Shown one piece after another: positions 308 through 5,022 of a stretch of 64,000 bases of DNA (position 1 is the first letter of the stretch; each line of letters opens with the position of its first letter). The notes under the pieces were generated by a model, which saw nothing but the letters and a program-made list of their open reading frames with translations, had not been told where the DNA came from and made no database searches. The stretch is from an uncultured Deferribacterales bacterium (GTDB lineage Bacteria; Chrysiogenota; Deferribacteres; Deferribacterales; Mucispirillaceae). The translations under genes were made by a program, and so were the position numbers. Location: positions 1 to 64,000 of the forward strand of contig CANTXF010000016.1 of assembly GCA_947853665.1 (NCBI GenBank), given 5' to 3'.

Positions 308-3300
308 ATGCCTAAAATTACAAGACGCGGATTATTACAGCTTGGCGCGGTGGTTTCGGCCGCCACGCTTGCCGGTTGTTCTAAAGATGACGACGCGGAT
401 TTTACACCGATTTCCGAGCAGAACGATCTGGTGTTCGATAAAGAAGCAAGGGTGGTATGCAGCAGCGGCGCTTTTAACTGCGGATCAAGATGCCATCATA
501 AAGTGCACGTAAAAAACGGCAGACTTATAGCCCTTACTTCTGCGGGAGACATAAAATACAGCGAATGCGCGGCTCTTGACGAAAATAACCCGGATGAATT
601 CGTTAAGGATACCCTTGCCACTATGGCGGAAGGAAAGCAGGTTCAATACAGGGCCTGCGCAAGAGGATATACTTATATCTCAAAAACATACCAGCCGGAC
701 AGACTTAAATATCCGCTTTTGAGGGACGAAACCCTGGGGCTTGAAAAAGGCGACGTTAGCGCTTTCCGCCGCGTTACCTGGGATAAAGCCATGGAGTTTG
801 CGGTAAACAGGGTAAAAGACTGTTTTGACAGGCAGGGAGCTTTGGGCTATATCCCGGGCTCCGGCAGACAGTGGATACATTTTAACCTTATGGGAGCTTT
901 TTATAAAAAATTTCCATGGGTATGGTTCAATAATAACGAGTCTACCGGCAATACGGACGGCGCAAAGTTCGATTCCATAGGAGGCACGTCCAAATCCAAC
1001 AACCGTACGGACAGGTTCAACTCCAAGTTCATACTTACCTGGGGTCAGGATAACAGCAGCACCACATTTTATCAGACTAACGCCTACTGGATGGAGACTA
1101 AGCTGCGGGAGGCCGGAACGCCTATCGTCGTCATATCTTCCACATACAGCGACGCGGCGGCGATGCTTGCCACCGGCACGGATGTAACTTTTAAAAGATG
1201 GCTTCCCGCAGATACCACGGCGGTTCTTTCTGGAGAGGGAAGGGCGGTATATCAGGAGCCTAGAGTGGACGACGATCTGCCTTATTACGAATACGATATT
1301 TCTTCCGGCGGAGCTACCGGAGAAGAGTATACGGTAAAAATCCCCGCGTGGGTTCCATGCCGCCCGGCTACCGACGGCGCTCTTATGACGGCTATGATGT
1401 ACGTGCTTTATAAGCGCGGCATGTACGATAAGAAATTTCTTGAAGATCAGTGCTTCGGGTTCTTTAAAAATCAGGAGATAATCAGCACCGCTCCCGAAAC
1501 ATGCCAGGCCGGTATGCCGGTGTGGGCTCCGAAAGAAGGCACAATAGGCGATACCGGAGACTTAATAGAATTCGGCAAACCTTTTACCGGTAAAAAAATG
1601 GTAGTTCCCGACGGTTATTCCTTTGAAGAACATCTGTTATCTCTCGAAAACACCACGGATAATGGCGGCTGGACCAATGCGGAAGATGGAGGAGACCTTT
1701 ACAGCGGTGTTCTTGGGTACGCCTCCCGCCTTACAGGCGTATCACGTGAGCTTATAGAAGCCATCGCCATAAAATACTTTGAAACCAGACCGTCGTTCCT
1801 TGAAGCAGGCGGCGGCCCGCAGAGGGCGTATAACGGCGTGGAATGGTGCTGGCTCTGCTTCTGCTTTGCCGCGATGTGCGGCCATACCAATAAAAGGGGA
1901 GGCGGCCCGGGCATGACCATGTACAGCACCCCGGACGAAATGGTATTTAACGACAAGTACAGCTCCGCATGGAATTCCGGTTCTTCCCGCGTTAATCCGT
2001 GGAGCGGAAAAACGATCGCCGTTAATCTTTCCGCTTTTTCCCATATGGCCCTTACCGGTACGGACTGGCGGTCGCCTGAACAGATGGCGCAGGATGTGGA
2101 ATTTGAAACCACAGGATACGCCGCGCCCGACGCGCTGAAGGAATATGGTTTGGTAAAGCCTGTAACCGATATTCTTTCCAGAGAAAAACCTGTTGAGTTG
2201 GAGTGTATAGTATGCGTCCATGCCAACTATGTGGTGTCTCAGGCCAACAGCAACAAATGGGTGGAGGCGTTAAAAAAGCTTAAAACACTTATCGTTGCCG
2301 ACTTACATATGACGCCTACGGCAAGGTATGCGGACGTGGTTTTTCCCATAGCCAGCAACTACGAAAGCGAATTTTTCGGAGACCCTTTTATATGGGGGCC
2401 TACGGCTAAATTTTATCATGCCAAGGCTATCGAGGTTATGTACGACTGCCGCACGGAGGCTTATTTCGAATCGGAGCTTTGGAGCAAAATAAACGACGCC
2501 ATAGGCGTTTCCAACGAGGAGGTTCCTCCGTCCTATGCGGAAACTGCCAGACCGTCGGGAGAACAGGGCTACGATACTAAAATCGCCCCATCTCCCTATT
2601 ATACGAAACTGGTAACGAGCGACGTTAAAACGCCCACATGGGAAGAACTTAAAGCTAAGGGCTTTTACGATCTTACAATACCTACCGATAAACCGATAGT
2701 CGGCATGAGGGATATAACCGTTCCCGGTTCCGTTGACCCTAAAACCGGAGAAGCTGTGGAAGAAGCAAGCAAAGTCGCCACTTCCACGGGGCGTATAAAT
2801 TTCTTTTCTCCATTTTGGTATCTGCGTATGCAGACTTACGCCGAGCAGGACTACCTTAAAAAAACTGCTGGGTTCCGCACGTCCACGGCAAAATATATCC
2901 CCAACAGGGAGGGTTATGAAAAATTCTTCCGCAACAGTGAAGCCGCGGATGATTACGACAAGAATTTAAAGAACTTTACCGGCTATAAGTCTCCCGTTAG
3001 CCAGAGAAATTATAAGCTCCTTTATCTTGCTAATAAGCCCCGTTTCAGAGCTCAGACGGTTCTTGACAACGTGGCTATGATGAAAGACCAGGTAAAGGGC
3101 CACGGCGTGCGTATGAACAGCGCGGATGCTGCGGAGCGCGGTATTAAGGACGGGGATTTGGTGTACGTTTATAACGACAGAGGCTGCATAAGGGTTCATG
3201 CGGAGGTTTCCCACAGGCTGCCTCCCGGCGTTGTGAGCGTGGAGCACGGCGTATGGTACCAGCCTTCTACGGACCCTGACGAGCAGGTAACGATATGGAT

Positions 3301-3472
3301 GTGCGAAAATAAGGATAATAAAACTTATACCCCGAAAAGGGTTCCCGTGGATGTAGGCGGCTGCGCAAATACTCTTACCGACGACTGCTTTACCCTAGAC
3401 CCTACTTTCTGCGTGCAGACTCTGGCCGCTCAGGGTGGGCCCTGTGAAATATCCAAATATAAACCGGAATAA
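308..3472 (+). CDS. Tat-exported molybdopterin oxidoreductase, catalytic subunit (DMSO reductase superfamily)
   Basis: Large catalytic subunit of 1054 residues expected to bind bis-MGD molybdenum (or tungsten) and one [4Fe-4S] cluster and to reduce a terminal electron acceptor in the periplasm. The start at 308 is chosen because an AGGAGA Shine-Dalgarno site lies 7 bases upstream; an earlier in-frame ATG at 275 overlaps the cytochrome gene. The N-terminus has a twin-arginine stretch (TRRGLLQLG) followed by a lipobox LAGC with Cys24, so it looks like a Tat lipoprotein. Cluster ligands appear to be Cys51, Cys58, Cys62 and Cys117; the NCGSRC segment resembles DmsA, but the first cysteine is displaced (C-x6-C-x3-C). 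A ferredoxin subunit and a TorD chaperone follow; no NrfD/DmsC membrane subunit is present. The substrate (DMSO, selenate, arsenate, polysulfide, tetrathionate or other) cannot be told from sequence. Confidence 0.88.
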   Translation: MPKITRRGLLQLGAVVSAATLAGCSKDDDADFTPISEQNDLVFDKEARVVCSSGAFNCGSRCHHKVHVKNGRLIALTSAGDIKYSECAALDENNPDEFVKDTLATMAEGKQVQYRACARGYTYISKTYQPDRLKYPLLRDETLGLEKGDVSAFRRVTWDKAMEFAVNRVKDCFDRQGALGYIPGSGRQWIHFNLMGAFYKKFPWVWFNNNESTGNTDGAKFDSIGGTSKSNNRTDRFNSKFILTWGQDNSSTTFYQTNAYWMETKLREAGTPIVVISSTYSDAAAMLATGTDVTFKRWLPADTTAVLSGEGRAVYQEPRVDDDLPYYEYDISSGGATGEEYTVKIPAWVPCRPATDGALMTAMMYVLYKRGMYDKKFLEDQCFGFFKNQEIISTAPETCQAGMPVWAPKEGTIGDTGDLIEFGKPFTGKKMVVPDGYSFEEHLLSLENTTDNGGWTNAEDGGDLYSGVLGYASRLTGVSRELIEAIAIKYFETRPSFLEAGGGPQRAYNGVEWCWLCFCFAAMCGHTNKRGGGPGMTMYSTPDEMVFNDKYSSAWNSGSSRVNPWSGKTIAVNLSAFSHMALTGTDWRSPEQMAQDVEFETTGYAAPDALKEYGLVKPVTDILSREKPVELECIVCVHANYVVSQANSNKWVEALKKLKTLIVADLHMTPTARYADVVFPIASNYESEFFGDPFIWGPTAKFYHAKAIEVMYDCRTEAYFESELWSKINDAIGVSNEEVPPSYAETARPSGEQGYDTKIAPSPYYTKLVTSDVKTPTWEELKAKGFYDLTIPTDKPIVGMRDITVPGSVDPKTGEAVEEASKVATSTGRINFFSPFWYLRMQTYAEQDYLKKTAGFRTSTAKYIPNREGYEKFFRNSEAADDYDKNLKNFTGYKSPVSQRNYKLLYLANKPRFRAQTVLDNVAMMKDQVKGHGVRMNSADAAERGIKDGDLVYVYNDRGCIRVHAEVSHRLPPGVVSVEHGVWYQPSTDPDEQVTIWMCENKDNKTYTPKRVPVDVGGCANTLTDDCFTLDPTFCVQTLAAQGGPCEISKYKPE

Positions 3473-3484
3473 TGGAGAATAATA

Positions 3485-4288
3485 ATGAGTCAATGGGGAT
3501 TTTATTTTAATCAGGACAGGTGCCTGGGCTGTCTGGTATGCAAAATGGCCTGCAAAAACTGGAATGAAAAACGCAGGGGAGACGCTCAGATTAACGGCAA
3601 GGACTATATAGCCGGAGACGAGGAGTATAAAAACCAGACCGACGGCGGAAAATACGGCGTAAGCGAAGGCTCCGCGGAAAATCCCGGTATTTATATGGCC
3701 TCCGACGGGGCTAATAATTACGGGGAATTCAGAAAATACTACATGAAGGAGGACTGGCGCCGTGTGGAAACCTATGAATACGGAGCCGTTACTCTTGACA
3801 GAGGCAACGTTTTTACTCCCGGAGTTGACAGGCGCTATATTTCCGTGTCGTGCAATCACTGCAGCGATCCGGTGTGCGTTAAGGTATGCCCGGTGGGAAA
3901 TATTTATAAAGACCCGGATACTGGCGCCGTCCTTACGGTAAGCTACGACGCGTGTATTTCCTGCGGCAAATGTAAAGACGCATGCCCGTGGGATGCTCCC
4001 CAGTTTTACGACGCGGATTTCGCCAGATATGCTCAGGACGACCCGAAACGTCCTAAAATGACCAAATGCACCCTATGCAGGGACCGCATATCCGAGGGTC
4101 TTAAGCCGGCATGCGTGGCCGCCTGCTGGAACAGGGCTCTCGACGCTGGCCCCATAGAGGAGCTGCGCCGCAAGTACGGCGATGGTGTAACGGATTCTCT
4201 GCCGGAATTTAAAAGCGGGGACACCCCAATGGGAAATACCGGGCCTAATATATTTTTCAAGGCTAAAACGGACAGGATAAGAAAATAG
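3485..4288 (+). CDS. Four-cluster ferredoxin subunit of the molybdoenzyme (DmsB/PhsB type)
   Basis: Electron-transfer subunit of 267 residues with four [4Fe-4S] cysteine groups: CLGCLVCKMAC near residue 13, CNHC...CVKVCP near 123, CISCGKCKDACP near 158, and CTLC...CVAAC near 195. This is the standard layout of DmsB, PhsB, NrfC and SrdB-like partners of periplasmic molybdoenzymes. It has no signal peptide, so it is presumably exported bound to the Tat-bearing catalytic subunit. About 75 residues between the first and second cysteine groups form a long insertion. A GGAG site stands before the ATG, 12 bases after the catalytic gene stop, so the two are co-translated. It would pass electrons between the cytochrome pool and the catalytic subunit. 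Confidence 0.9.
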   Translation: MSQWGFYFNQDRCLGCLVCKMACKNWNEKRRGDAQINGKDYIAGDEEYKNQTDGGKYGVSEGSAENPGIYMASDGANNYGEFRKYYMKEDWRRVETYEYGAVTLDRGNVFTPGVDRRYISVSCNHCSDPVCVKVCPVGNIYKDPDTGAVLTVSYDACISCGKCKDACPWDAPQFYDADFARYAQDDPKRPKMTKCTLCRDRISEGLKPACVAACWNRALDAGPIEELRRKYGDGVTDSLPEFKSGDTPMGNTGPNIFFKAKTDRIRK

Positions 4289-4289
4289 T

Positions 4290-4320
4290 TTAAAGGCCGG
4301 GCCGCAAGCCCGGCCTTTAA
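4290..4320 (+). other. Perfect 13-bp stem-loop between ferredoxin and chaperone genes
   Basis: Positions 4290-4302 pair exactly with 4308-4320 around a 5-base loop (CGCAA). The stem is GC-rich in the middle but is not followed by a T run, so it is a poor intrinsic terminator. It starts right after the ferredoxin stop codon and ends 12 bases before the chaperone ATG. An mRNA-stabilising or processing hairpin that lowers chaperone output relative to the enzyme subunits is the likeliest role; a partial terminator is possible. Confidence 0.6.
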
Positions 4321-4332
4321 CGGAGATACCCT

Positions 4333-5022
4333 ATGGAAGAATTTAAAAAATACCTGGTTTTGCGGGGCAGCATATACAGAATGTTTGCTCTCATATTTTA
4401 CAAGGAACCTGCGGAAAAGGATTTTGCCAGGCTGAAAAAATATCTGCCAGTTTTCGGAGAGTTGGCGCGCGGATACGAAAACGATGAAATTTCCGCCGGT
4501 ATAGCGTTTCTGGATGCTTTTTTCTCCGAATATGGCGAAGAGGAGGCGGTTTCTGTCTGCGGCAGGCATTTTACTGAAATTTTCCTCAGCACCGGGCTTT
4601 CGCTGGGCAAAAAGAGCGTGGTGCCTCAGGAATCCGTGTATCTTTCGCCGGAGCATTTGTCTATGCAGGAGCCGAGGGATCAGGTTCTTGAAGAATATTA
4701 TAAATGTGGCATAGGTAAAGAGAGCGGGTTTTCCGAGCCGGAGGATCATGTAAGCGCGGAACTTTATTTCTCCGCATGGCTCGGGGATAAACTCTCCGAC
4801 GAGCTTGGGAACGGAGACGGCTCGCAGGCGGAAAAAACCGGCGTACAGCTAATGGATTTTACGAAAAAGCACCTTATAAGGTGGGTTCCCGCCATGTGCT
4901 CGGATGTGGAGCGGATTTCTCCTGATAAATATTATAAAGGCGTTGCGTTAGTCGCCAGAGGTTTTCTGCGTACCGACGAGCATATATGCGGAGAAGCCGT
5001 CGGTTGTAAAAAGTCAGTTTAA
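4333..5022 (+). CDS. TorD/DmsD-family molybdoenzyme chaperone
   Basis: All-helical cytoplasmic protein of 229 residues, the usual size of TorD-family redox enzyme maturation proteins. These bind the Tat signal and the immature catalytic subunit, help cofactor insertion and prevent early export. The segment around residues 97-112 (VPQESVYLSPEHLSMQEP) matches the region before the family's E-P-x-D-H motif, here seen as SEPEDH near residue 136. It is the last gene of the molybdoenzyme set and is separated from the ferredoxin gene by a perfect stem-loop. Assignment rests on this motif pattern and on context; the exact subfamily is not certain. Confidence 0.85.
   Translation: MEEFKKYLVLRGSIYRMFALIFYKEPAEKDFARLKKYLPVFGELARGYENDEISAGIAFLDAFFSEYGEEEAVSVCGRHFTEIFLSTGLSLGKKSVVPQESVYLSPEHLSMQEPRDQVLEEYYKCGIGKESGFSEPEDHVSAELYFSAWLGDKLSDELGNGDGSQAEKTGVQLMDFTKKHLIRWVPAMCSDVERISPDKYYKGVALVARGFLRTDEHICGEAVGCKKSV

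Follow-up and report, generated by a model that had tools for sequence, protein, structure and literature searches.

The closest described counterpart of the locus studied here is the extracellular dimethyl sulfoxide (DMSO)/iodate reductase of Shewanella oneidensis, DmsEFABGH (PMC11302344, PMC9048795, PMC3223724). One of these accounts locates its DmsAB subunits, along with DmsEF, at the outer surface of the outer membrane (PMC9048795). We analysed a window of 64,000 nucleotides from an uncultured Deferribacterales bacterium, namely positions 1 to 64,000 of contig C16 of the host genome (G000; window base 1 is base 1 of the contig), which opens with a molybdoenzyme operon encoding a catalytic subunit (MoA), a ferredoxin subunit (MoB) and a TorD-type chaperone. 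As far as the cited accounts describe the Shewanella system, the two have in common a molybdenum (Mo) subunit with a twin-arginine (Tat) signal and lipobox, a DmsB-like subunit, a TorD-like chaperone (DmsG in Shewanella), an outer-membrane protein (putative in our system) and a multihaem cytochrome, and neither operon includes DmsC. They differ in that the barrel protein of our system has no match to MtrB/PioB-type proteins (DmsF) and the window itself contains no barrel gene, that the cytochrome has 5-6 CXXCH motifs instead of 10 and no match to the DmsE model, and that the barrel and cytochrome genes form a multi-copy cassette standing before or after MoA-MoB-TorD. Compared with DmsABC/YnfEFGH of Escherichia coli, the window system has a lipobox and no membrane subunit, and MoA is 24% identical to DmsA over 757 aligned positions. 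An uncharacterised reductase of Mucispirillum schaedleri (AYGZv1_260003/4), from the same bacterial family as the host, is up in inflammation and 32-36% identical to DMSO, tetrathionate and trimethylamine N-oxide (TMAO) reductases (Loy et al. 2017, PMC5285517); the part of that report describing it mentions neither anchor, barrel nor poly-G tract. On balance, we lean towards MoA being an outer-membrane lipoprotein reductase fed by a barrel-cytochrome cassette.

The genes at the window start, with the coordinates that a previous sequence-only reading had given for 308-5022, are as follows.

1 to 288, + strand: 3' part of a secreted penta/hexahaem cytochrome gene (last 95 codons, 3 CXXCH), which aligns with full copies
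308 to 379, + strand: Tat signal (TRRGLL) running into the lipobox LAGC, Cys24 codon at 377-379, read from the sequence
308 to 3472, + strand: MoA, DMSO-reductase-family catalytic subunit, 1054 amino acids, FS0 region CGSRC, probable Mo ligand Ser212
3485 to 4288, + strand: MoB, DmsB-like four-cluster ferredoxin subunit, 267 amino acids, 16 Cys
4333 to 5022, + strand: TorD/DmsD-type maturation chaperone, 229 amino acids, PF02613

A Tat signal and lipobox in the absence of DmsC

The N-terminus of MoA, MPKITRRGLLQLGAVVSAATLAGC, carries the Tat motif followed by LAGC with Cys24, as the sequence-only reading had described, and this lipobox is kept in all seven members of the closest clade (7/7), where the linker behind it varies while the Cys stays. 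Among the 53 homologues with a recognisable RR motif (some rows of this set being one gene on overlapping loci), the lipobox was found by pattern in 45, or 46 with one FPGC that falls outside the pattern. The host genome encodes TatC and 26 proteins that match PF00384 (28 matches); 22 of these lie at loci that were read, and 18 of the 22 combine a Tat motif with a lipobox. This conservation argues for lipidation of Cys24 after Tat export. Were Cys24 instead left unlipidated and MoA cleaved elsewhere, the enzyme would be soluble in the periplasm like TorA, and two observations agree with this: the lipobox is present in 11/14 of the wider clade, the Cys being missing from one host protein and two G048 proteins, and several homologues carry Tyr, Phe, Gln or Asn at position -2, which is unusual in a lipobox. 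Given the canonical LAGC of the window protein and a Cys retained throughout the closest clade amid drifting surroundings, we consider a soluble MoA very improbable.

In Shewanella, DmsA and ArrA, the Mo-containing lipoproteins of the DMSO and arsenate reductases, are described as exported by Tat, and the +2 sorting rule fails in that genus (PMC3223724), so no inference is drawn from the Ser at +2 in MoA. The CSKDD that follows the lipobox was considered as a surface-export signal but is not put forward as one: some other host lipoproteins begin alike, as judged by eye, and MoA proteins from other families than that of Mucispirillum have a CGG-type motif instead.

The MoA-MoB-TorD operon contains no membrane-anchor gene in the window. 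DmsC (PF04976) is absent from the whole host genome, the control search recovering DmsC in E. coli, and NrfD (PF03916) occurs once, adjoining a hydrogenase-2-type large subunit, and on these grounds a membrane subunit encoded elsewhere in the genome was rejected. The earlier claim that the operon has no DmsC/NrfD partner is borne out, and the proposal that a lipobox takes the place of the anchor subunit is supported. The sequence-only reading's suggestion of a departure from the textbook DMSO reductase needs to be narrowed: a lipid anchor with a cytochrome partner has a precedent in Shewanella DmsEFAB, where DmsA is described as a Tat lipoprotein working with DmsE/DmsF, so that the anchor is not new in kind and it is the partner that differs. 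On the quinol side, a NapC/NrfH-like protein with eight CXXCH motifs and one transmembrane segment is encoded at G000:C21 (PF03264 over cut-off, NrfH match weak) and is a candidate quinol dehydrogenase. A GspD (type II) secretin gene is also present, over cut-off.

A barrel-cytochrome cassette next to molybdoenzyme genes

The multihaem cytochrome that the sequence-only reading placed directly upstream of MoA does end there: its stop at 288 and the ATG at 308 are 19 bases apart, and its 5' part lies beyond the start of contig C16. The MoA start is preceded by AGGAG, and an alternative in-frame ATG at 275 would overlap the cytochrome gene. Downstream, 12 bases separate MoA from MoB and 44 bases MoB from TorD; MoB has no signal peptide of its own and is a probable Tat hitchhiker.

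Full-length counterparts of the cytochrome stub (5 CXXCH, Sec-type signal) occur on host contig C32 and at 3830-4333 of locus L031, which belongs to a Mucispirillum metagenome-assembled genome (CALUWI010000015), the nearest named relative, with 72% identity in the best segment, which assigns the host to the Mucispirillum family of the Deferribacterota. At L031 the cytochrome homologue is preceded by a 512-amino-acid gene with, both as judged by eye, a signal peptide and an outer-membrane-type C-terminus. This gene was found in 27/50 genomes of the phylum. In the regions fetched, which were picked by MoA or barrel hits and so are not a random sample, the cytochrome (150-180 amino acids) directly followed every one of 39 distinct full-length barrels of ~480 amino acids (39/39), and MoA, MoB or TorD lay within three genes of the barrel in 35/39. 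The four remaining cassettes are in G039, G030, G048 and G016, the last three near a contig end. Two gene orders recur, MoA-MoB-TorD-barrel-cytochrome and barrel-cytochrome-MoA-MoB, at times in tandem (four sets in G018); barrel-cytochrome-MoA, the order at the window start, is found in G018, G023, G017, G024, G027 and on host contig C32, among others.

These pairings support the earlier proposal that a lipidated enzyme exchanges electrons with the cytochrome, which had missed the barrel in front of it. The upstream genes, which that reading had wanted read for a membrane subunit, could be read in relatives, where the putative outer-membrane barrel precedes the cytochrome; the window itself starts at the contig end, and presumably the barrel gene ahead of its cytochrome lies beyond it too. 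No credible Pfam or NCBIfam family was found for a set of 21 barrel sequences and nothing credible in the PDB with their profile; a general outer-membrane barrel model gave weak matches in 2/21. The protein is thus a putative outer-membrane barrel. Because the barrel always precedes the cytochrome, the outer membrane is the likely site of MoA. The barrel had no match in a plasmid collection, and the best 15 matches listed there for MoA were all distant (22-24% identical).

Proposed arrangement and competing explanations

In the arrangement that we favour, MoA would fold in the cytoplasm with its cofactor, assisted by TorD, and carry MoB over the inner membrane through Tat. Cys24 would be lipidated after signal peptidase II cleavage and MoA would then be located at the outer membrane, most probably on the side facing outwards. 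Electrons would leave the quinol pool via the separately encoded NapC/NrfH-like cytochrome, pass to the barrel-associated penta/hexahaem cytochrome, presumably in physical contact with the enzyme, and reach the active site via the four clusters of MoB and then FS0. The lipid would take the place of a DmsC-type anchor and the cassette would take over its electron delivery, the contig-end cassette being the putative partner of the window MoA. Models for MtrB/PioB and DmsE gave no match to the barrel or the cytochrome, so an electron-conduit role may be assigned to them by analogy only.

Besides the three wider-clade proteins without the Cys, several observations weigh against this arrangement. 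Homology of the barrel to MtrB/PioB/DmsF was rejected, as no Pfam, NCBIfam or PDB-profile match was found in 21 members; no match of the cytochrome to the DmsE model was seen in 18 members at E 0.1; and structure predictions had a mean pLDDT (predicted local distance difference test) of 28 for the barrel (the L031 copy alone) and 29 for MoA (two sequences). The barrel gene of the window operon is itself outside the assembly. Finally, in the 73%-identical orthologue (L031/L097, G041), the cytochrome upstream is the last gene of a different MoA operon, radical-SAM and MocR-type genes stand between that cytochrome and MoA, and a barrel start belonging to the orthologue itself follows TorD (G041:C15:60742-60816).

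The size of the cytochrome, just 5-6 haem motifs in 150-180 residues against a decahaem DmsE, together with a ~480-residue barrel that lacks similarity to MtrB-type proteins and the NapC/NrfH-like protein encoded in the genome, would also suit a different topology. MoA would then be a periplasm-facing lipoprotein, on the inner membrane or the inner leaflet of the outer membrane, the cytochrome a periplasmic shuttle drawing from the NapC/NrfH-like quinol dehydrogenase and the barrel a substrate pore. However, the constant pairing of barrel and cytochrome (39/39) is easier to reconcile with a joint complex than with a pore acting by itself, and a secretin of the type II secretion system is there for surface delivery; we regard the periplasmic version as a real possibility, though not the one we would expect.

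The G041 orthologue bears on a further explanation, in which the cytochrome at 1-288 is the mere tail of the preceding operon and does not serve the window MoA: at L031/L097 the homologue ends a MoA-MoB-TorD-barrel-cytochrome operon, two genes from the MoA orthologue. In the window, however, the gap of 19 bases leaves no room for a regulator, and the barrel-cytochrome-MoA order is found in more than six genomes, making this explanation unlikely to our minds; one cassette may also serve both neighbouring operons.

The host carries one full cassette (C32); some of its contig ends, that of C16 being one, hold cytochrome 3' stubs, and further contig ends hold barrel 5' stubs. Nine cytochrome stubs at other contig ends have 86-92% DNA identity to the window stub over the common part. 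With these stubs sitting at contig ends, the cassette is the repeat at which the assembly broke, and the barrel upstream of the window operon is therefore deduced and not seen. Protein identity to the L031 query is 100% for three barrels of G041 and 99% for a fourth; the reductases beside these 99-100% identical barrels (C15, C10, C1 and C25) differ, which suggests that the cassette has undergone gene conversion or spread recently.

If the outer-membrane placement is right, respiration by outer-membrane-attached molybdoenzymes, known from Shewanella, would extend to a gut-associated phylum, and the smaller cytochrome and unrelated barrel would raise the question of the smallest number of haems that suffices for an enzyme at the outer membrane.

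Poly-G tracts and probable phase variation

What is probably the most novel part of this analysis arose as a side finding. We collected 50 MoA copies from the Mucispirillum family that combine a Tat motif and a lipobox with a mature frame of 350 codons or more, and in 29 of them a run of 8-10 G's follows the lipobox Cys codon by 33-44 nt. Eleven of these tract copies are in frame and 18 are out of frame, the mature frame of the latter being intact; all 21 copies without a linker tract are in frame and none out (Fisher p = 2.4e-6). Two of the 21 have a run inside the signal region or ahead of it. The in-frame share of 11/29 is statistically indistinguishable from one third (p = 0.69). As the copies are related by descent, both p values are only indicative.

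Poly-G copies out of frame: L041, L043-L047, L097@4723, L099, L100, L102, L104, L105, L131, L145, L148, L149, L151, L156
Poly-G copies in frame: L035, L037-L040, L098, L103, L146, L147, L157, L160

Orthologues differ in state. The copy at G038:C139 is in frame (G10); it shares 76-86% identity with those at G041:C1, G044:C79 and G039:c, all three of which carry G9 and are out of frame. Likewise, G039:b is in frame (G9), with G044:C33 (G8) and G047:C151 (G9) out of frame. G039 is a single-contig genome, which argues against an artefact of metagenomics alone. In 312 kb of the host genome, chosen round the MoA genes, we counted 0 G/C runs of 7, 0 of 8, 18 of 9 and 1 of 10, for expectations of about 40, 11, 3 and 1 from base-to-base frequencies, a model that overestimates runs in this genome. 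Genome-wide the host has 69 G9 matches (64 distinct runs); other family members have 0 to 55, and other families mostly fewer than 10, with exceptions such as G030, G032, G004 and G005. The apparent split of MoA paralogues after ~65 codons had also raised selenocysteine as a candidate, which was rejected: the DNA shows a poly-G frame change and no in-frame TGA.

From these sequence patterns, the tracts probably make respiratory molybdoenzymes phase-variable; slippage during transcription of the run is an alternative. The window contains no run of 7 or more, so the window MoA is not switched by poly-G and its copy is in frame. We tentatively propose that in Mucispirillum-type gut bacteria about twenty exchangeable lipid-anchored molybdoenzymes sit on near-identical cassettes, with poly-G slippage switching single enzymes and allowing clonal bet-hedging on electron acceptors; the window MoA would be a member of this repertoire without a switch. 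If true, phase variation would here have respiratory enzymes as its target, and population bet-hedging on gut electron acceptors would become directly testable. Literature matches on phase variation in Mucispirillum were unrelated by title and abstract (preprints and most subscription papers being outside the scope); none were found on homopolymeric phase variation of molybdopterin respiratory reductases, nor, in the broader literature, among the matches listed. The main text of a Campylobacter catalogue of phase-variable genes has no entry with molybd, respirat or cytochrome (PMC6321876).

MocR/GntR-type regulators near close MoA relatives (L031:7485, L032:12593, L033:5147) have runs of nine G or C in or beside their frame, and the one in L032 is broken in pieces.

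Family placement and substrate

MoA carries the domains PF00384 (90.7 bits) and PF01568 (68.4 bits), both over cut-offs, which places it in the DMSO reductase (MopB) superfamily. Its best NCBIfam model is DmsA/YnfE (TIGR02166), at 228.1 bits and far under the cut-off of 777.7, and the next places go to further models for S/N-oxide and type II enzymes; the best model for MoB is DmsB-type (158 bits). The oxyanion substrate entertained by the sequence-only reading finds no support, as the ArrA (55.1 bits, cut-off 1600), DMSO type II (including SerA; 140.5, cut-off 984.75) and TtrA (32.5, cut-off 1750) models score far below DmsA/YnfE on MoA and none of their cut-offs is approached; the PhsA model gave 85.8 bits. 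In a tree of 54 sequences, the window clade has support 1.0 and stands apart from DmsA/YnfE and TorA/BisC, its deeper attachment being weak (0.15). The tree that the earlier reading had called for was thus obtained in part: it separates MoA from the E. coli DmsA group with references from E. coli only, and for SrdA, SerA, ArrA, PsrA and TtrA the NCBIfam scores stand in where a model exists. By sequence, then, MoA is assigned to a Deferribacterota branch near, yet outside, the DmsA/YnfE group.

The CGSRC and Ser positions of MoA align with E. coli DmsA/YnfE. The column of the DmsA GDYS Ser, which we take to be the Mo ligand, is occupied by Ser212 in the window (NNES) and by Ser in every member of the window clade. 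Judging from these DmsA-like active-site positions, an S- or N-oxide-like acceptor would be the plainest guess for the substrate. In the FS0 region (window 458-493), the first FS0 Cys of DmsA has no conserved counterpart at its position; members of the window clade carry Cys, His or Trp three residues earlier, and in other paralogues the sequence reads HNCGG.

Neighbouring features

B12-binding/radical-SAM-type genes recur beside wider-clade MoA operons in several genera.

L031:4654-6351: B12-binding/radical-SAM-type genes
L112:11840-15923: B12-binding/radical-SAM-type genes
L114:8943-14142: B12-binding/radical-SAM-type genes
L119:2403-6508: B12-binding/radical-SAM-type genes

Further large multihaem cytochromes were seen in the host, in a cluster with a 28-CXXCH protein (L137:4675-12815) and as a 12-CXXCH protein with MtrC/MtrF-like domains (L036:2930-5740) that adjoins a barrel-cytochrome-MoA operon. 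Within the window operon, one element lies between the MoB and TorD genes.

4292 to 4318, + strand: perfect 11-bp inverted repeat, arms AAAGGCCGGGC and GCCCGGCCTTT around the loop CGCAA, read from the sequence

This hairpin may act as an attenuator or an mRNA-stability element.

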